Assembly: GCA_009691915.1 (NCBI GenBank)
Contig: SIAD01000008.1
Location: 1-64,000 of the forward strand
From: Phycisphaerales bacterium
GTDB lineage: Bacteria; Planctomycetota; Phycisphaerae; Phycisphaerales; SM1A02
Direction: 5' to 3'
DNA: 64,000 bases
Below the pieces are notes generated by a model. It saw nothing but the letters and a program-made list of their open reading frames with translations. It did not search any database and was not told the DNA's origin. Each line of letters begins with the position of its first letter. Position 1 is the stretch's first letter. The position numbers and the translations under genes are program-made. Positions 8,418-54,162 of this stretch are shown piece after piece.

Positions 8418-11400
8418 GCGACGAGATGTAGGCCACGAGGTCGCGTAGTTCTCGCGGAGTGAGCAGGGGCCCCACGGCTGGCATAGCCGATGGAGTGGCG
8501 AATCCTGCGGAGATGACCAGTTGCGGTTCGACAATTGACTCGAGGATTGCACGAGAGTCGAGCCGCGATCCGACACCATCAAGTGCAGGGCCGGCGTGGC
8601 CGCCAACACCAGCGATCGCGTGACACCGCATGCACGCGACCGCCGAGTTGTAGAACGCCACATCGCGGCCCTTTGCGATCGATCCCCCCTCAAGGACACT
8701 GGGCGCGAGCGCATCGGTGAGGCCGATGCCGCTTTCGGGGTTCATGAGCGCGGCGGCCTTCGCGGCGCGCGGGTCTCCCCGCGTGAGAGCCGTCTCAATG
8801 AGATCGAGTCGGATCCCCGCCGCGAGCGTGCGGCGGTCCATGTCGCCAAGCAGCGAGTCGAGGTGCTTAGACGCCGAGGCACTGATCAAAGCATCCGGGC
8901 TCGCGGCGATGGCACCCAGCAGAGCGACCGCCGACTGCCTTTCCTGGTCAGTTCCGTGTGTTAGCGCCGACTGTGCCTCCGAGAGAGCGCGGGATGGACT
9001 GAGCGACACCAGATACTGACGCGCACTGATGCGAAGATCAGGATCGGAAGCGACGATCGCAGCGTCAACGGCCGTCGCCAGTCCAGAGTCCTTCGCCGCG
9101 CCAAGTTGGTTGAGCGACGCAATTCGCTCCGGCGCGGATCGAGTGGCGTCGAGCACCGCCTCGAGATTCGCTTTCTGGTCGAGGGCCACACCGACCTTCG
9201 TGGCCAGTTCGATCGCCCTCGCGCGAAGTTCGCTGTCCGAACCTGTGGCGATCGCAGGCAGTGCCATGGTGGCAACGCGCATGAATGCGTCCCCACTGCG
9301 CGGTTTCGGAGCGACCATTCCCACACGCCCATGCACGCGATCGCGCACCGGCGGATTCGTGTACTCGCCCAGCGCCTCGAGCGCCTCACTGCGCACAACG
9401 CCCGGGAGCGTGGTCGAGCCTGCGATCGCGGCCAGCGCGTTCGCGCCATCCGGGGCCACCATCAGGTTCGCCGCGATAGTGCGCTTGGCGAATGCCAGCA
9501 GGCTGGGATCAACTTCGGTCCGGCCGATCGGTCGCTCGAGGGCTCCACTGGGCAATCGCCAGCCAATAGCGAGATGGTTGCCGCCGCCGCCCTGGAAGTG
9601 GCGGGCTTCAAGTCGATACTTCGTGCCCGCGGTCAGCGCGATTGTCTCGGAGACCTGCACAGGATCGCCCTCCCACTGGCCCTTCTCGGCGTAGCCGTCG
9701 ACCCGCGCGATCGCGCGGCGTGATGCGGGGGATCCTTCGGTCTCGAGGAACAGCACGGAGTCATCGTCGCTGCAAAGAAAGAACCGGTACTCGCCATCTT
9801 CGGGCGCGGTGATGGTTCCCGAGAGCCGTTGCAGGTAGTTGTTGCCGTAGTCGGAGAATCCGGTGGCCTCAGGGGCGTGCGCACTCTCGTCGCTCGCTCG
9901 TGCGAAGACGGCCGAAGTCTCCAGCTCCTTCGACGACTTCGCCGACGCACCCTTCCATACTTCCCTCAGAAAGTCCACCGCGCTTGCGTTCGACTTCTGG
10001 GTGGCACCCTGAGTCTGGATCAGCCGCCCGCTGGCGGCCGCCAGGGCCGGGAACGCCTCGGGGATCGGCACATCCCAGATTGCTCGCGCTGCCTCAGCAC
10101 CGATGCGTATGTCCGGGTCGAAGAGAAATCGCTGGATCGCCCCATCCTTCTGGCGGCGCATCGCCAGCAGGACGCCGAGTCTCACACTTGGAAACTCGTC
10201 GGTCGAGAGTTGCGCAAGTGTTGCAGTGTCCGCGCAGTCGGCTAGTCCCACGACGAGTGCATGTCTGAGGTACGGATCCGAGTTGTCGTTCTCCCACAGT
10301 GCCGCGGTCAGCGCGGGCACCGCCTCCTTCATGAGCGCACGATCATTCCTGGCGATCCTGCCAGAGGCAATGGCACACGCGGCGCGGACCCGGGTGTCGG
10401 GGTCAAGGATGTGCTCGACAAGTTTGGGGACGGCGGGCGAATACACCGCATCACCCATCACCCGCGCGGCCTGCGCCCTGAGTTCCGAGTCCTCCGAATC
10501 GAGCATCGACACAATCGGGGCGAGCGGGTCCAGGTCTGTCACCTTGGCGCAGCGGACTGCGCGCGCCTGCATGGAAAGCGCCCACAGTGCGTGAACCTGT
10601 GCGAGCAGGCGGAGGCGTCCGTCGCTCACATCGGGGGCGCCAGCTTGAACCAGAGCAAGGAGCTGCACGGTCGAGAGTGATCCCATTGACGCCAGCGCGA
10701 ACTGCGCCCCCTGACGAACGCGCATGTCGGCGTGTCCGAGGAGTCCGATGAGGTCCGCTATCGGAATCGCATCGAAGCCCGACGAGAGCAATGCCCGTGC
10801 GCTCACCGCGGCGGGATCCGCCATCGCAGCAGGATCCCACACGGCGTAGATGCTTCCCTTGCCGGTCGAGTACCAGCCACCGCCCCAAGCGCTGACATAG
10901 AACCGAGAATCGGGGCCGAACGCCACATCGGTCGTGAGGATCTCGGTGACGAATGGTTTGACCTCGGTGACCTTGTAGCCAGCACCGTCGCGCTCGGCGG
11001 CAATCGCCAGCACATTGCTGTGCGATTCACTTCCGAGAAAGTCACTCATGAAGAACAGACCATCCCACTCCCGAGGCATGCCGGTCCCCGGCGCGTAGGC
11101 GAGTCCCGATGGCCCGCTGCCGACATGCGCCAGTGGCGGAAGCGTCCACGCTGGGTAATCGCGCTCGGGGCGCGTCCGTAGATGCCAGATTCCCTCCTGA
11201 TTCCACGGCCCGCGCTGGTTGCTCTTCTCGAGCGTCTGGTAGTTCATGTCCCAGCCGGTCTCGCTTTGGTCCATGACATAGACGAATCGGGCACGGTCGC
11301 CACCGTCGGAGTTGTTGTCGCCCGTGAAGAGGTCGCCGTACTCATTGAAGGCCAGCTCCTGCGGATTGCGCAACCCAGTCGCGAATAGTTCTAGTGCCGA

Positions 11401-36031: not shown

Positions 36032-36041
36032 AGATTACTAT
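36032..36041. promoter_or_regulatory. Bidirectional overlapping -10 boxes
   Basis: Minus strand TAATCT (complement of 36032-36037), 7 bases before ATG 36024. Plus strand TACTAT (36036-36041), 8 bases before ATG 36050. The two boxes share the central TA, so one short element would drive two divergent, leaderless messages. Confidence 0.45.
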
Positions 36042-47784: not shown

Positions 47785-48468
47785 ATGCTCATTAAGAGAG
47801 GGTCTAGGGTCGCCGCTATCGGCGTCGGCGTAATCATCGCCGCGTTCGCCAGCCAACCCGTACTCGCAGACTTCACCAATCCATCCATTCCCGCGTGGCG
47901 GGGCGGTCCAGCCGCCGCTTTCTTCGCGTGGGAGAGCTTTACATCGCCATTCGGCGGCGCGAATGACCCGAACTACGCCGGCACTGACACGGGCGCCGCG
48001 CTGTTCAACTTCACGATGGGAGCGTCTATCACGGGCGCAGGAAACCTGTTTGGAGCGCAGAGTCCGCTTTCCGTGATGGTCATCGGTGGTCTCACGAATC
48101 GCGTCAACGAAGTCGTCTTGAATCTCTCGACGCTTGGCACGGTTATAAACCTCGACTCGGTTCGGCTGACGCTCGCGGACAACGCCGGACACAACTACAC
48201 CAGCATCTTCCACTACACGCAATTGCGATCAGATGTAGCCGCTCCTAGTGGGCAGGGGCAGATCCAGACTCGTGCGTTCAAGTGGCAGTTGCCCGCCGGC
48301 GGCACGGAGTTCAATCCGACCCGATTCACCGTCGACTTCTCCAGCCAGACGATCAACATGGCCCTCGATGCGGTCAGCCTCGACTTCCACTATGTCCCGG
48401 CACCGACCGCAGTCGCGCTCGCCTCACTGGCGGGGCTGGTCGGAACCCGTCGACGGCGACGCGCCTGA
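47785..48468 (+). CDS. Exported protein with PEP-CTERM-like C-terminus
   Basis: 227 residues. A basic N-terminus and signal peptide end at QPVLA near residue 28. The mature region is beta-rich with many Asn/Ser/Thr/Gly, and no enzyme motif. The last 24 residues are VPAPTAVALASLAGLVGTRRRRRA: a Pro-rich turn, a short hydrophobic helix and an arginine cluster, the tripartite pattern of PEP-CTERM/exosortase targets. Expected to be cut and anchored or released at the surface. No exosortase gene is present in the window. The tail overlaps metG by 45 bases, tail to tail. Confidence 0.78.
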   Translation: MLIKRGSRVAAIGVGVIIAAFASQPVLADFTNPSIPAWRGGPAAAFFAWESFTSPFGGANDPNYAGTDTGAALFNFTMGASITGAGNLFGAQSPLSVMVIGGLTNRVNEVVLNLSTLGTVINLDSVRLTLADNAGHNYTSIFHYTQLRSDVAAPSGQGQIQTRAFKWQLPAGGTEFNPTRFTVDFSSQTINMALDAVSLDFHYVPAPTAVALASLAGLVGTRRRRRA

Positions 48469-50028
48469 ACTAGACGCCATGGCCGTCGCTTCGACCCTCG
48501 GGAAGAGGGCGACCTTGTGGATCGCGGTGCCATCCTGAATTGTTCCGTAACGCCTGCGATCGGCCCACGCGGTCGCTGCGCCGGGTGATCCGCCGAACGC
48601 CGTGGCGAGGTCCGCCCCACGCTGGGGAATGAACGGCTCAAGGAGCACGCCCGCTAGGCGCACGACTTGCGCGCATTGATTCAGGATCGAGGAGAGTCGC
48701 GGGGTGTTGGCCGGATCTTTCGCGAGCTTGAATGGCTCTGTCTCATTGATCATCGCGTCGACCTGCCCCAGCAGATCGATCCCGCAGCGCGAGGCACCAA
48801 CAAGGTCGAACCGCTCCATCGAGCGCTCCCATCGGTCGACCACTTCTGAGCACTTCTGGGGCCACTGACCACCTCGGTCGGCATCGGTCGGAAGCGATCC
48901 CGCGAAGTACTTGCCGATCATTGCGCCCACACGGCTCGGGCAGTTGCCCACCGTATTGACCAGGCTACTCGTGTAAACCTCGTGGAAGTGCCGTGCGTTG
49001 AAGTCGGCGTCGGTCGCGGCGATCGGCCCCTGAGTGGCCATGTACCAGCGCCAGGCGTCGAGGCCATACACGGAGGTGTAGCGCTCGATCGTCGGGAGGT
49101 CGACGAAGTTCCCCAGCGACTTCGACATCTTCTGTCCATCCGCGATCCAGAAGGAGTGGGCGTAGACGCATCGCGGCAGGGGCAGATCAAGCGCCATCAG
49201 GAGCGCCGGCCAGATGACCGCATGGAACCAGAGGATCTCCTTGCCGATGATGTGGTAGTCCGCGGGCCAGTACTTCTCGCGGCCTTGCGTCGACGCGTCG
49301 CCCCCTCCGAGCCCGAGTGCTGTCACATAGTTGAGCAGCGCATCAATCCAGACATAGACGACATGGCCGGGGGCGTCCGGCATCGCGATCCCCCAGGAAA
49401 AATTGGTGCGGGTGATCGGCACATCCTGAAGACCATCACGCATCCGCCCAATCATCTCGTTGAAGCGCTCGACGGGTCGGACGAAGGTCGGATTGGCGGC
49501 GTAGTGCTGGGCGATCCTTTCCGAGAACGCGCTGAGTTTGAAGTAGTAGTTCTGCTCGGTCGCTCGCACGAGAGGCTTACCGCTGATGGGACTCTTGTAG
49601 TTGAGTTCGCGGGCGCGATTCTCGGTGTGGTACTCCTCCTGGCCCTCGTCGTACCACCCCTCGAAGGTGCCGAGGTACACCGCTCCCCGCGCAACCAGCC
49701 TCCGAAGAAACTCCTGCACTTGGGCGATATGCCGCGGCTCGGTGGTGCGGATGAAGTCGGAGTTGGTCAGCGCGAATGTGCGCATGACGCGCTGAAACTC
49801 CGCCGCGTTTTCATCAGCCAGCTGCTGTGGCGAGATCCCTCTGGCGGCAGCACTCTTCTCGACCTTCACGCCATGCTCGTCAGTCCCAGTGAGGAAGAAG
49901 ACATCGCGTCCCATGCCCCTCTGGGCGCGCGCCCACACATCGGAGATCGTTGTGGTGTACGCGTGGCCGATGTGCGGACGATCGTTGACATAATAGATCG
50001 GCGTCGTAATGGTGGCGCTCGTCAACAT
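48424..50028 (-). CDS. metG: Methionyl-tRNA synthetase
   Basis: Class I synthetase charging initiator and elongator tRNA-Met; 534 residues. TTPIYYVNDRPHIGHAYTT holds the HIGH motif near residue 21, and GQKMSKSLGNFVDL holds KMSKS near 300. The knuckle region reads FEGWYDEGQEEYHTE and lacks the paired zinc cysteines, so this is the zinc-free form. It has no C-terminal EMAP-like tRNA-binding domain; the tail is Ala/Ser-rich. TAGGAT lies 9 bases before the ATG. It faces away from the gene at 50072 and runs into the PEP-CTERM-like gene. Confidence 0.95.
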   Translation of the reverse strand: MLTSATITTPIYYVNDRPHIGHAYTTTISDVWARAQRGMGRDVFFLTGTDEHGVKVEKSAAARGISPQQLADENAAEFQRVMRTFALTNSDFIRTTEPRHIAQVQEFLRRLVARGAVYLGTFEGWYDEGQEEYHTENRARELNYKSPISGKPLVRATEQNYYFKLSAFSERIAQHYAANPTFVRPVERFNEMIGRMRDGLQDVPITRTNFSWGIAMPDAPGHVVYVWIDALLNYVTALGLGGGDASTQGREKYWPADYHIIGKEILWFHAVIWPALLMALDLPLPRCVYAHSFWIADGQKMSKSLGNFVDLPTIERYTSVYGLDAWRWYMATQGPIAATDADFNARHFHEVYTSSLVNTVGNCPSRVGAMIGKYFAGSLPTDADRGGQWPQKCSEVVDRWERSMERFDLVGASRCGIDLLGQVDAMINETEPFKLAKDPANTPRLSSILNQCAQVVRLAGVLLEPFIPQRGADLATAFGGSPGAATAWADRRRYGTIQDGTAIHKVALFPRVEATAMASSSGASPSTGSDQPRQ

Positions 50029-50071
50029 GCGGAGGGAATCCTAGGCGGAAGCGCCGAGCGCGAGCTGCGCG

Positions 50072-50698
50072 TCACGGAGCACCCAGTGCCACTCGGGCGG
50101 TGTCGAGCGCCGCTCGTTCGTCACACCGTGCGACAAAGAGAATGGTGCCGTCGGTCCAGACCAGCGTTGATGGCCCATCAGGATCGTCCGGGTCATCAGG
50201 TTCGAGAATCGCATCCGAGGACTCAAAAGGTCGCGCACGGCCGAACTCATCGAACACAGCAAACCCGCCGTCATCGGGAATCGCCACGAGCGTGACGAAT
50301 CGCGCGGAGTTCTCTCCAGCGCACTCGAAGAGAATCGCCAACCCGCGGCCATCCCCAGCGAGCGGGATCGGGCCGGCCAGCACCGCGATCCCCCCGAGCG
50401 ACTCAAACGACGGCGGAGACCACTCCACCCTCAAGGATTCGGTCGCGAGTCTGGTGAGCTCATCTCCGGTCGGGCCAGTGGCGTCGGACGGTCGCTCGAT
50501 CGCCTCAGCCTCCATGCACTGCTGGACATCGCGCGCGGCGTGCGCGAGGTCTCCGAGAGGCTTGAGCGAGTCGGCGCTGCGGCCGTCGCCAATCCGCGGT
50601 CCCAGGACTCCCAGGAGTACGGCCACCGTGACGAGCAGGACAGTGCACAGAACGGCCCACAGGCGCGGCTCCCGGCGCACTCGTCGCTCGTTCGGCAT
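50072..50698 (-). CDS. Single-pass membrane protein, unknown function
   Basis: 208 residues. A basic N-terminus (RRVRREPRLW) and one membrane helix at about residues 13-34 place the rest in the periplasm. The outer part has a cysteine in DVQQCMEAE and ends in a beta-rich domain with FVARCDERAALDTARVAL, so it could form one disulfide. The layout recalls membrane-anchored anti-sigma-type or sensor proteins, but no zinc-finger HxxxCxxC is present, so that is not claimed. Its -10-like TACAAC, 7 bases upstream, overlaps the promoter of the divergent gene at 50723. Confidence 0.68.
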   Translation of the reverse strand: MPNERRVRREPRLWAVLCTVLLVTVAVLLGVLGPRIGDGRSADSLKPLGDLAHAARDVQQCMEAEAIERPSDATGPTGDELTRLATESLRVEWSPPSFESLGGIAVLAGPIPLAGDGRGLAILFECAGENSARFVTLVAIPDDGGFAVFDEFGRARPFESSDAILEPDDPDDPDGPSTLVWTDGTILFVARCDERAALDTARVALGAP

Positions 50699-50705
50699 GG
50701 CGATG

Positions 50706-50715
50706 GTTGTACACT
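50706..50715. promoter_or_regulatory. Bidirectional overlapping -10 boxes
   Basis: The ten bases GTTGTACACT hold TACACT on the plus strand (50710-50715), 7 bases before ATG 50723, and TACAAC on the minus strand (complement of 50706-50711), 7 bases before ATG 50698. Only 24 bases separate the two start codons. Confidence 0.5.
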
Positions 50716-50722
50716 TTGTGCG

Positions 50723-52477
50723 ATGACGGGCGCGCTCATTGTCGCACTCATTCTGGGGCAGAACGCGCTGGACGTAAACCTCCAGCGGGGCTCTGGCACG
50801 GATCTCGATGCGGGACAGCAGCAGGGTCGCAGGGTGAACCAGGCGATCCCGCAGCAGGACTACCGATCGCGGAACCTCGTCGTGACTGGCGATGTCGCCG
50901 GAGGACGAGGGTTTCGAGGAACGGTTGGCTACTCGTCCGAGGGTGATTTCAGTGGCGCACTAGGAAGCGACAGTAGCCGCGCATTCCGCGCGAATTCTGC
51001 GCTGTCCAGCATTGGCGCAATCAACAGCATTCCCATGAACGACCGCTTCGGACTGGCCACGGGGATCGGTGCGATCTCGTACCGCCGCGAGACGGTGTCG
51101 GACCAATCCTCCGCCAGAACGGTTCCAGGTGCGCCAGGCCAGGAGCGAATCGCATACTCGTCGCGCGATGCGGCGCTGGCAAACGGCGACCGCGCGAGGC
51201 TCGACCTTGCAACTCGTTCCGCCTCGACAGGAGTCGAGTACGCGTCGCTCTATGAGCCGATGGTGGTCAAGACCGTTCCAATTGTGGGAGGGCGCAAGGC
51301 CAAACTCATTTCCAGTCCGTTCAATGGGCTCGTGGCGGTTCCCACCGATGACGCGATTGAGTCGCTCAGTCTCGGCGTGTACGGTAGTGCGCTCCTGCGT
51401 GCGGACCTTCGGCACGGTCGAGCCGACCGCGCCAAGATCGCGCGGTCGTATGTGACGGTCAACGAGCGCTCTTCGGCAGCACGGCTTGACACAAAGATTC
51501 AACCAGCCATGGCGGGGATAGCTCCCACCGCGCCGGACGCAGCCGCTCGAGGTGAGAGGCGCAATGCCTACGACCTGATCGTCAACGCGGCAACCGACCG
51601 CTATCAGGCGCTGAGGGGAGCGAAGGAGGGAACACCCCCAGAGGCGGCAGGACAACCCATCTCCACGGCCGAAGTGGTGAAGCATCTTCGCGAAGGATTC
51701 CAGCGAATTCAGGACGAGCCCACCAGTGCGATCGAGAGAATCACCGGCGTCAAGCAGGCGTCAGGATCGACGATCGAGACTTCGCCCACGAGAGAGCCCG
51801 ACGCTGACTCGATCCCCGCGCCGCGCGTCGCGCCGACATCGGACACGGAGGGGAAACACACACAGCAGCGGCCGCTCACCGCGGAAGAGGTAGCGACGCT
51901 GGCGGCCTACAAGGATGTCGTCGATAGCCTCGATGGCGGATCGAAGGAGGCGCTCGACATACTGCTCACCTCGGGCGAAGAGTCGATGCGCCAGGGCCGC
52001 TATCTCTCGGCTGAGCGCGCGTTCATATCGGCTGCGCTCGTCGCCCCCGCGAATCCGCTGCCGCTTGTGGGAATCGCCAACAGCCAACTTGCCGCCGGAC
52101 TCGATGTCGCGGCGGCGGTTGCTCTGAGGCAGCTGCTCATGAATTATCCTGAGATGGTAGGCGTCAGATACTCGCCAGAACTCCTGGGAACTCCCGAACG
52201 ACTCCGCGCAATTGCCGAGGCCGCGATTGGCGATGGAACCCCCTCACGGAACTCGGCGGACTACGGGATGATCTCCGCGTACATCGGATACCAACTTGAG
52301 GATCGTGCGCTGACTGAACGGGGGCTCTCGCTTCTGATGGCAAGCCCCGAGGAAGCCGGGTTTGCACGCGCGCTGAAGGCGGTCTGGCTCCCGTCGCAGA
52401 AGCCCGAGCCAACGCCAATGCCCGAGCCCGCGCCGCCAATGCCAGAGCCAGCCAGTCCCCCGGCGATCGTTCCCTAG
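50723..52477 (+). CDS. Exported TPR-like protein with Pro/Glu-rich tail
   Basis: 584 residues from ATG 50723; the longer frame lies antisense to the neighbouring gene. A short signal peptide (about residues 1-12) leads into a Gly/Ser/Arg-rich, low-complexity region of about 150 residues. A conserved-looking middle follows (VKTVPIVGGRKAKLISSPFNG), then TPR-like helices near 400-520 (SGEESMRQGRYLSAERAFISAAL, PLVGIANSQLAAGLD). The end is a run of PEP and MPEP units. Probably a periplasmic or envelope scaffold; I do not recognise a named family. Confidence 0.75.
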   Translation: MTGALIVALILGQNALDVNLQRGSGTDLDAGQQQGRRVNQAIPQQDYRSRNLVVTGDVAGGRGFRGTVGYSSEGDFSGALGSDSSRAFRANSALSSIGAINSIPMNDRFGLATGIGAISYRRETVSDQSSARTVPGAPGQERIAYSSRDAALANGDRARLDLATRSASTGVEYASLYEPMVVKTVPIVGGRKAKLISSPFNGLVAVPTDDAIESLSLGVYGSALLRADLRHGRADRAKIARSYVTVNERSSAARLDTKIQPAMAGIAPTAPDAAARGERRNAYDLIVNAATDRYQALRGAKEGTPPEAAGQPISTAEVVKHLREGFQRIQDEPTSAIERITGVKQASGSTIETSPTREPDADSIPAPRVAPTSDTEGKHTQQRPLTAEEVATLAAYKDVVDSLDGGSKEALDILLTSGEESMRQGRYLSAERAFISAALVAPANPLPLVGIANSQLAAGLDVAAAVALRQLLMNYPEMVGVRYSPELLGTPERLRAIAEAAIGDGTPSRNSADYGMISAYIGYQLEDRALTERGLSLLMASPEEAGFARALKAVWLPSQKPEPTPMPEPAPPMPEPASPPAIVP

Positions 52478-52487
52478 TCACACGCGC

Positions 52488-53405
52488 CTATGGTGTTCGC
52501 TCGCGCAGCGCGTCGGTCGACGACACACCGAGGTTCTCATAGATCTTCCTCGTCGCGTCGCTCTTGTTGAGTGTGTAGAAGTGAATGCCTCGGACGCCTT
52601 GGTCGATCAGTTCGCGGCACTGCTCGGTCGCCCAGTGGATCCCCACCCGTGCGACCGCTTCGGGATCGTCGCCCGCGCGGCGAATCGCCCTCAGAAGTGC
52701 CGCCGGAAAAATCGCACCTGCGGCCAATTCCGCCATCCTCGTCATCCCTGCGATCGAGGTGATCGGCAGTATGCCCGCGAGAATCGGCGTGCGGATCCCA
52801 GCCAGCTCGCAGCGCTGCCGCCAATCCAAGAACGCATGGTTGTCGAAGAAGAGTTGCGAAATGATGAGGTCGGCCCCGGCATCGCACTTCGCCTTGAGGT
52901 GATCCATCTGAGTAAGCGTGTTGGGAGTCTCGGGATGGCCCTCCGGGTATCCGGCGACAGCAACACCAAATCCGCGCGGATCCGAGTGGATCCCCAGTTT
53001 GGCGAACTGTCGCACGGCGCCAACGAGGTCGATTGCATGTGCAAACGCGCTCCGCGCACCACCACCCTCCTTGGGCGCATCCCCGCGCAGCGCAAGGATG
53101 TTCGAGACTCCGGCGCGGGCATACTCCGAGAGGATGTCGTCGATCTCGGTGGCAGTGTGGTTGACGCAGGTCAGATGCGGCATCGCCTCAAGGCCGGTCT
53201 CGCGGCGGATCCGTATCACCAGTTCATGGGTGTTCTGTCGAGTCGATCCCCCGGCGCCGTAGGTCACGGAGACGAAACTCGGCCTGAGCGGACCACAATC
53301 TGCGATGGTTCCGAAGAGCGAATCCCAGCCACTGGCCGACTTCGGCGGGAAGAACTCGAAGCTTGCGGTGAACGAATCGCGCGCAAGCACATCGACCAGA
53401 TGCAT
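52488..53405 (-). CDS. metF: Methylenetetrahydrofolate reductase
   Basis: FAD enzyme reducing 5,10-methylene-THF to 5-methyl-THF for methionine synthesis; 305 residues from ATG 53405. SFEFFPPKS holds the catalytic Glu near residue 17. Then come SVTYGAGGSTR, MPHLTCVNHT, NILALRGDAPK, FGVAVAGYPEGHPE and GADLIISQLFFDN, all in the expected order. The preceding in-frame GTG (53408) is less likely, because TACGCT stands exactly 6 bases before ATG 53405. It is divergent from rex. Confidence 0.96.
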   Translation of the reverse strand: MHLVDVLARDSFTASFEFFPPKSASGWDSLFGTIADCGPLRPSFVSVTYGAGGSTRQNTHELVIRIRRETGLEAMPHLTCVNHTATEIDDILSEYARAGVSNILALRGDAPKEGGGARSAFAHAIDLVGAVRQFAKLGIHSDPRGFGVAVAGYPEGHPETPNTLTQMDHLKAKCDAGADLIISQLFFDNHAFLDWRQRCELAGIRTPILAGILPITSIAGMTRMAELAAGAIFPAALLRAIRRAGDDPEAVARVGIHWATEQCRELIDQGVRGIHFYTLNKSDATRKIYENLGVSSTDALRERTP

Positions 53406-53411
53406 CACGCA

Positions 53412-53427
53412 AGCGTACCTGCGGTAC
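53412..53427. promoter_or_regulatory. metF -10-like box overlapped by a short palindrome
   Basis: TACGCT on the minus strand (complement of 53412-53417), 6 bases before ATG 53405. The perfect inverted repeat GTACC-TGC-GGTAC (53415-53427) overlaps it and could be an operator; it does not resemble the published Rex site. Confidence 0.4.
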
Positions 53428-53460
53428 CCACTGAGACCCTGCGTGCGGGGTGAGCGGATC

Positions 53461-53466
53461 TAGACT
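53461..53466 (+). promoter_or_regulatory. -10-like box, leaderless geometry, rex
   Basis: TAGACT, 6 bases before GTG 53473. Confidence 0.45.
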
Positions 53467-53472
53467 AACGCC

Positions 53473-54162
53473 GTGCCCTCGCGCATTCCCCGACCCACCG
53501 CACACCGAATCAGCCTGTATCGACGGGAGCTCCAACTCCTCCTCGCCTCAGGTCAGCGCACCGTCAGTTCGATGGAGATCGCACAGGCTGTCGGAGTAAC
53601 CGGCGCGGCCGTGCGGAAGGATCTCGCCTGGGTCAGCGCGACTGGCCCCGACAGAGACACCCGCGTCGGCCACGCGGGGGTGGGCTACGACTGCGCGCTC
53701 CTCATGGATCGGATCCGCGGGATCATCGGGACCAACCGGCCGTGGACTGCTGTGCTCGTCGGGTGCGGGAACATCGGCCGTGCACTCCTGGCGTACGGTG
53801 GATTTGTGGGCCAGGGATTCGAAATAGCTGCGGTTTTCGATGGCCAGAAAGGGGTCGTGGGGAGGGTGGTTGGGCGGCTGACAGTGCAGCCAATGTCAGA
53901 ACTCCGCAAGTCCGTCCGCAGCACCAAAGCAACCATCGGGATCATTGCCGTGCCGAGGAGTGCCGCCCAGACCGTCGCCACACAACTATGCAACGCGGGA
54001 GTGCGCGGGATCCTAAACTTCGCTCCCATGAGGCTCGCTGTCAGCGAAGGAGTTGCCGTGACCAACATTGATGTCAATGTCGCGCTTGAGCAACTAGCTC
54101 TCAACATCAGCCTCCGTGCCGACGGGAAGCGCCCCCCCCGTGAGACTGGTGGTGCCCTGTGA
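53473..54162 (+). CDS. rex: Redox-sensing transcriptional repressor Rex
   Basis: Senses the NADH/NAD ratio and represses fermentation and respiration genes. 229 residues. The N-terminal winged helix (RISLYRRELQLLL, SSMEIAQAVGVTGAAVRKDLAW) and GHAGVGYDCALL linker are typical. The Rossmann domain has VLVGCGNIGRALLAY near residue 99, and the later ATIGIIAVPRSAAQTVA and GVRGILNFAPM stretches. The C-terminal NVALEQLALNI helix supports domain swapping. GTG start. The TGA overlaps the next gene as GTGA. Confidence 0.95.
   Translation: MPSRIPRPTAHRISLYRRELQLLLASGQRTVSSMEIAQAVGVTGAAVRKDLAWVSATGPDRDTRVGHAGVGYDCALLMDRIRGIIGTNRPWTAVLVGCGNIGRALLAYGGFVGQGFEIAAVFDGQKGVVGRVVGRLTVQPMSELRKSVRSTKATIGIIAVPRSAAQTVATQLCNAGVRGILNFAPMRLAVSEGVAVTNIDVNVALEQLALNISLRADGKRPPRETGGAL

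Follow-up and report, generated by a model that had tools for sequence, protein, structure and literature searches.

The 24 bases between the start codons of two divergent genes, for which we coin the labels divM and divP, are best explained as a minimal bidirectional promoter: a shared -10 region that would serve both genes, with messages predicted to be leaderless on either side. Comparison of sequences leads us to give this reading a probability of about 0.78. It is built on the anatomy of the spacer, the conservation of its core and of the distances from the core to the start codons, a genome-wide leaderless signature, and the occurrence of the same layout at other gene pairs.

Anatomy and conservation of the divM/divP spacer

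The window, that is, the whole stretch of 64,000 nucleotides analysed, belongs to a source genome of 2.27 Mb in 34 contigs (G000). The features of the locus are as follows:

50699..50722, no strand: candidate bidirectional leaderless promoter, the whole 24-base intergenic spacer, delimited from start codon to start codon
50706..50716, no strand: GTTGTACACTT, the 11-base core, invariant in 19/19 genus loci
50710..50715, plus: TACACT, proposed -10 of divP, ending 7 bases before ATG 50723; fits TANNNT
50706..50711, minus: TACAAC, proposed -10 of divM, ending 7 bases before ATG 50698; without T at -7
50072..50698, minus: divM, 208 aa, with a hydrophobic stretch close to the N-terminus; precedes metG, which is also on the minus strand
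50723..52477, plus: divP, 584 aa, with a hydrophobic N-terminus
48424..50028, minus: metG, methionyl-tRNA ligase (TIGR00398 above cut-off), downstream of divM
50038..50043, minus: TAGGAT, which lies 9 bases before ATG 50028 and is proposed as a leaderless-type -10 of metG's own

The genes diverge from ATG codons starting at 50698 (minus) and 50723 (plus), and the 24-base gap that the original prediction placed between them is confirmed. It had further read GTTGTACACT, the 10-base block at 50706-50715, as holding one hexamer per gene, TACACT and TACAAC, each exactly 7 bases from its start codon and with two bases in common. This too is correct: the common bases are T50710 and A50711, a TA overlap kept in all 19 genus loci. 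TGTACA, at the centre of GTTGTACACTT, is a perfect palindrome. A simple sigma-70 scan of 50400-51000 detected no -35/-10 pair in either direction. Judged on the sequence by itself, the only promoter-like hexamer is the plus-strand TACACT; the case for TACAAC on the minus strand arises from the conservation of its sequence and of its distance to the start.

The genus comparison comprises 19 loci, with divP orthologues in all 18 congeners examined. GTTGTACACTT is unchanged in every locus. In 18 loci the core lies 7 bases from the divM start codon, and in the remaining one 6 bases from it; on the other side the distance to the divP ATG is 6 in five loci, 7 in seven and 8 in seven. Around the core the flanks drift: the 7 bases on its minus side take 16 forms across the 19 loci, and the columns adjoining the core have pairwise identities of 0.27-0.62. 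In four loci a second CAT lies at gap 3 on the minus side. The original prediction had proposed comparing the spacer in relatives and had named a non-conserved spacer as evidence against it; the spacer proved conserved, and with both starts at leaderless distance throughout the genus the comparison favours a shared bidirectional core. One congener (G016) has a 10-base tandem duplication in the spacer that splits the two hexamers, leaving each gene with its own copy, at gap 7 for the minus gene and gap 6 for the other. The duplication, GTTGTACACTGTTGTACACTT, is exact (locus L079, ~8468-8488) and, by un-sharing the hexamers, constitutes a natural control for sharing.

As controls we used three single -10s from the same genomes. 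TANNNT is present before proS in 15/16 loci (six hexamers), before metG in 15/19 (four hexamers) and before metF in 18/18 (five hexamers); in all three the T, the A and the final T are fixed and the middle bases drift. The loci counted as without TANNNT in range are a truncated proS locus (L078) and four metG loci (L090-L093), in which TACCAT lies ~11 bases before the start. The invariance of the full 11-mer thus exceeds that of the three control -10s, with their four to six hexamer forms, and hence another constraint may act on it.

Relatives in the genome collection are Planctomycetota metagenome-assembled genomes, many from lakes and several labelled Phycisphaerales, and they indicate the probable placement of the window's own genome. 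Since divP as a query found no relative on the contigs of the collection, loci outside the genus were retrieved with metG. In other genera the letters of the core differ and overlapping -10-like hexamers persist: CTTGTACACTT with gaps 6 and 8 (G019); GTTGTACAAT with gaps 6 (to GTG) and 6 (G087); GTTGTACACTT itself, with uncertain start codons (G084); CTTATACTT with gaps 8 and 6 (to GTG) and four shared bases, in 7/7 genomes of one genus and at one further locus (L188); and ATGCTACGCTT in 10/10 loci of another group, two of them from one assembly. The last contains strict TAGCAT and TACGCT hexamers with TA in common, and the divM start does not lie at the leaderless distance of 6-8 bases in the sequences compared for this group. 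At position -7 of the minus hexamer the genus has C throughout (19/19 loci), as do G087 and G084; G019 and the CTTATACTT group have G there, and T never occupies this position in the GTTGTACACTT, CTTGTACACTT, GTTGTACAAT and CTTATACTT forms. Four loci of other genera (G109, G081, G188 and L165) have two separate leaderless-type -10s that do not overlap. In loci of other genera (L097, L108, L126, L182, L186, L196 and others) divM is co-directional with divP, so that the gene neighbourhood outlives the promoter arrangement.

Leaderless signature and shared cores at other gene pairs

The genome-wide signature was sought in a sample of 464 kb (C18:1-400000 plus the window) with 307 crude gene calls. 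Among 1024 in-frame ATGs, TANNNT occurs 30, 15, 11, 10 and 6 times at gaps of 6, 7, 8, 9 and 10 bases; a second count over 837 ATGs gave 30, 14, 11, 10 and 6. Offsets further upstream, taken as background, hold 2.17 each, which makes the enrichment at these gaps 3- to 14-fold. A leaderless-type TANNNT site precedes 70 of the 307 genes, where background would give ~13. Shine-Dalgarno-like words also peak, ~7 bases before the start (26 against roughly 9), and the presence of both peaks indicates that the genome uses both start modes. The local -10 consensus is TA(G/C)N(C/A)T, followed by C/T and G.

The two hexamers of the spacer stand differently towards this signature. TACACT of divP fits the consensus and has the TANNNT form at the distance typical of the genome, ~6-10 bases before the start (gap 7 here, 6-8 genus-wide). 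On the divM side TACAAC stands in place of a TANNNT; its fixed distance and invariance suggest a function, and we do not claim for it strict membership of the leaderless class. TANNNC at gap 7 is at background before the 837 ATGs (3 against 3.65 expected), and we therefore rejected it as a general leaderless -10. As to composition, the TA dinucleotide is depleted three-fold in C18 (4568 seen against 13350 expected from base composition), and TANNNT in the G000 sample is under-represented beyond this depletion, as if stray -10 elements had been purged.

The sample contains 58 divergent pairs. Leaderless candidates precede both genes in 15 of them, and in five of those 15 pairs the candidates overlap, three by sharing TA in the manner of divM/divP and two more fully, in the manner of the 18-bp class. 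The divM/divP pair is itself absent from the 58, as the gene caller overlooked divM and placed the start of divP further upstream; its core also lies outside the strict pattern of the shared-core scan. In genomes of this kind start codons and promoters are better called jointly. A scan between open frames that did not use the gene caller found four TA-sharing cores and four with fuller overlap. Against these eight (gaps 6-10, frames of at least 100 codons), 400 controls with random non-stop codons yielded 0.10 on average and never more than 2, and a control that kept the real start codons on one side averaged 0.56, with 4 at most; three of the eight (C18 positions 4497, 28852 and 61201) lie between putative genes, defined by their open frames. 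From their translations, rather than a family search, we take pairs of this kind to be NUDIX/ABC ATPase, SixA-like/HutI, MutL/phosphoesterase and XseA/RecG.

Three of these pairs were followed through the genus. The starts of xseA and recG are separated by 17 bases, and a single TATCGTA core lies in this gap (L064:13152-13170, equivalent to C18:153152-153170). By eye, CTATCGTA is kept in 19/19 genus loci, and both start codons lie at gap 6-8 in 18/18 loci scored by script; the script missed locus L234, where its search range was too short and where the core is visible by eye. At mutL/phosphoesterase TATNNTA is present in 17/17 genus loci, with CC at the centre in five, GG in seven and TG in five, at gap 6 on the plus side and gap 9 or 10 from the minus ATG: what stays constant is what a two-way -10 needs, and the centre drifts. 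At nudix/abc, GATCATAGGATG is kept before the ABC gene in 18/18 loci, but only three of them have both start codons at gap 4-11, which counts against a general two-sided rule. The window holds a further shared core:

36032..36041, no strand: AGATTACTAT, TAATCT and TACTAT with TA in common

Here 7 bases separate TAATCT (minus) from ATG 36024, and 8 separate TACTAT (plus) from ATG 36050; the flanking genes are presumably glycosyltransferase-like (minus) and acetyltransferase-like (plus).

The layout, which spans 17-27 bases, brings together two themes already known, bidirectional -10 elements and leaderless mRNAs, and is both repeated within one genome and conserved across a genus. Where nothing but the core stands between the start codons, a comparison of relatives shows directly which bases the promoter needs. 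Such pairs also offer a natural test between the use of polymerase exclusion for regulation and its being a by-product of economy. A broader proposition, which we put forward tentatively and consider somewhat more doubtful than probable, is that in this planctomycete lineage a single self-complementary -10 filling the gap between divergent start codons is a selected standing design, which would yield a leaderless mRNA in each direction from a bidirectional promoter of the least possible size at housekeeping genes (xseA/recG, mutL); sharing might then be kept because the outputs are coupled, making these spacers more conserved than single -10s.

Proposed mechanism and alternative readings

The mechanism that we infer extends to the action of the hexamers as -10 elements, the transcript starts, leaderless translation, the strength in each direction and steric exclusion. 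Two -10 elements would face apart across common T(-12)A(-11) base pairs, TACAAC towards divM and TACACT towards divP, and polymerase would recognise a -10 on either strand. Each message would begin at its own start codon or within a base or two of it. If the usual 7 bases are counted between -10 and start, the messages would begin 23 bp apart, a preferred spacing in E. coli, or 25 bp apart if they begin at the A of each ATG. RNA polymerase would occupy the spacer in one orientation at a time, and at ordinary activity the two genes would probably be expressed independently of each other and fairly weakly, with no switch between them. An implication missing from the original prediction is that a 7-base gap would make the messages leaderless, and that a 24-base spacer would hence be sufficient.

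It is unlikely, in our estimation, that the core is the -10 of divP only, with divM transcribed from elsewhere and the conserved left half serving another purpose. Such a reading would account for the lack of T at -7 in TACAAC, for the background frequency of TANNNC at leaderless distance, and for the good fit of TACACT and the bases after it to the local consensus. It leaves unexplained that the distance to the minus start stays at 7 in 18/19 loci although the intervening bases take so many forms, that TTGTA, the left half, is no less conserved than the right half, and that after the duplication in G016 the minus gene still has a complete copy at gap 7. Chance, as the source of the arrangement in a short spacer, is scarcely credible: hexamers matching at 4/6 positions are common, but the enrichment of TANNNT, the conserved core at near-fixed distances in all 19 genus loci and its single copy per genome, at this place, put the arrangement beyond it.

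The 11-mer might alternatively be an operator for a DNA-binding protein over both promoters, its conservation being due to that protein and not to polymerase alone. The palindrome and the invariance of all 11 bases, beyond that of the control -10s, fit this idea, which we nonetheless regard as quite improbable. In the 12 genus genomes scanned, TTGTACACTT is single-copy and always at the divM/divP spacer (12/12), with no second copy elsewhere. The six further TTGTACAC sites of G000 look like coding sequence (long open frames) or 16S rRNA, the latter label being based on its conserved sequence, and not like promoters; a regulon with copies of the core elsewhere was rejected on these grounds. Moreover, neither divM nor divP matches a regulator family in NCBIfam or Pfam, the letters differ between genera where the overlapping hexamers stay, and other shared cores are equally invariant without a sequence of the GTTGTACACTT type. 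The invariance of CTATCGTA and GATCATAGGATG means that double use may suffice to explain that of GTTGTACACTT. An operator would in any case be compatible with the bidirectional promoter that we prefer, and does not exclude it. The original prediction went on to propose that polymerase bound one way should exclude the other, so that the genes could form an intrinsic either/or switch. As to exclusion, the common -12/-11 base pairs imply it, and the introduction of PMC12825309 states that opposed polymerases cannot bind a bidirectional site simultaneously; in principle this part stands. A switch does not follow: according to that paper, basal activity at the five E. coli bidirectional promoters tested was too low for polymerases to compete, and divergent output was repressed only when one direction was activated (Warman et al. 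2026, PMC12825309). Nothing found at the locus supplies activation, feedback, a regulator or bistability; the hexamers are separate in G016 and in the four loci of other genera noted above, and metG, which comes after divM on the minus strand, carries a leaderless-type -10 of its own in 15/19 genus loci. We therefore consider the switch very improbable.

Known promoters and neighbouring genes

Bidirectional promoters have been defined by starts on opposite strands 7-25 bp apart (Warman et al. 2021, as reported in papers citing it), with preferred start-to-start spacings of 18, 10 and 23 in E. coli (PMC12825309, in the part available). The spacer resembles these promoters, including those of a Salmonella plasmid (PMC10268837), in its candidate -10s, opposed and overlapping, which would give mRNA both ways from starts a predicted 23 bp apart. 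It differs in that the start codons lie at the predicted transcript starts, so that the spacer would equal the promoter core, and in that no -35 was found; further, the known examples rest on mapped starts, whereas divM/divP rests on sequence and conservation. With the TANNNT leaderless genes (Zheng et al. 2011, PMC3160421; Deinococcus-Thermus, PMC12340547) it shares, on the divP side, the element ~6-10 bases before ATG and the presumed dispensability of a Shine-Dalgarno sequence, but those accounts handle genes singly. Their main texts do not mention planctomycetes, and that of PMC12340547 mentions neither bidirectional nor divergent arrangements. For the phylum, a survey covering 260 prokaryotes, one planctomycete among them, had pointed to leaderless and/or S1-type signals (PMC5397173). 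The lysG/lysE pair of Mycobacterium tuberculosis is likewise divergent with overlapping promoters and one leaderless transcript, but it has a 108-bp spacer and a LysR-type regulator, and the leaderless start comes from a second lysE promoter (PMC5648196, in the part available). In the open-licence literature, as far as its available text extends, we found no description of two leaderless genes on one shared -10, which is not proof of novelty.

The proteins encoded on either side matched none of the NCBIfam families searched; against Pfam, divM gave one weak sub-threshold match (DUF6117) and divP a sub-threshold match to TPR_19. Beyond divP lie metF and rex, and these too form a divergent pair (metF minus, rex plus; window 53405-53473) with a leaderless-type -10 for each gene: TACGCT before ATG 53405 and TAGACT before GTG 53473. 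Many congeners have these hexamers back to back, separated by a few bases, within CTAGCACTAG.
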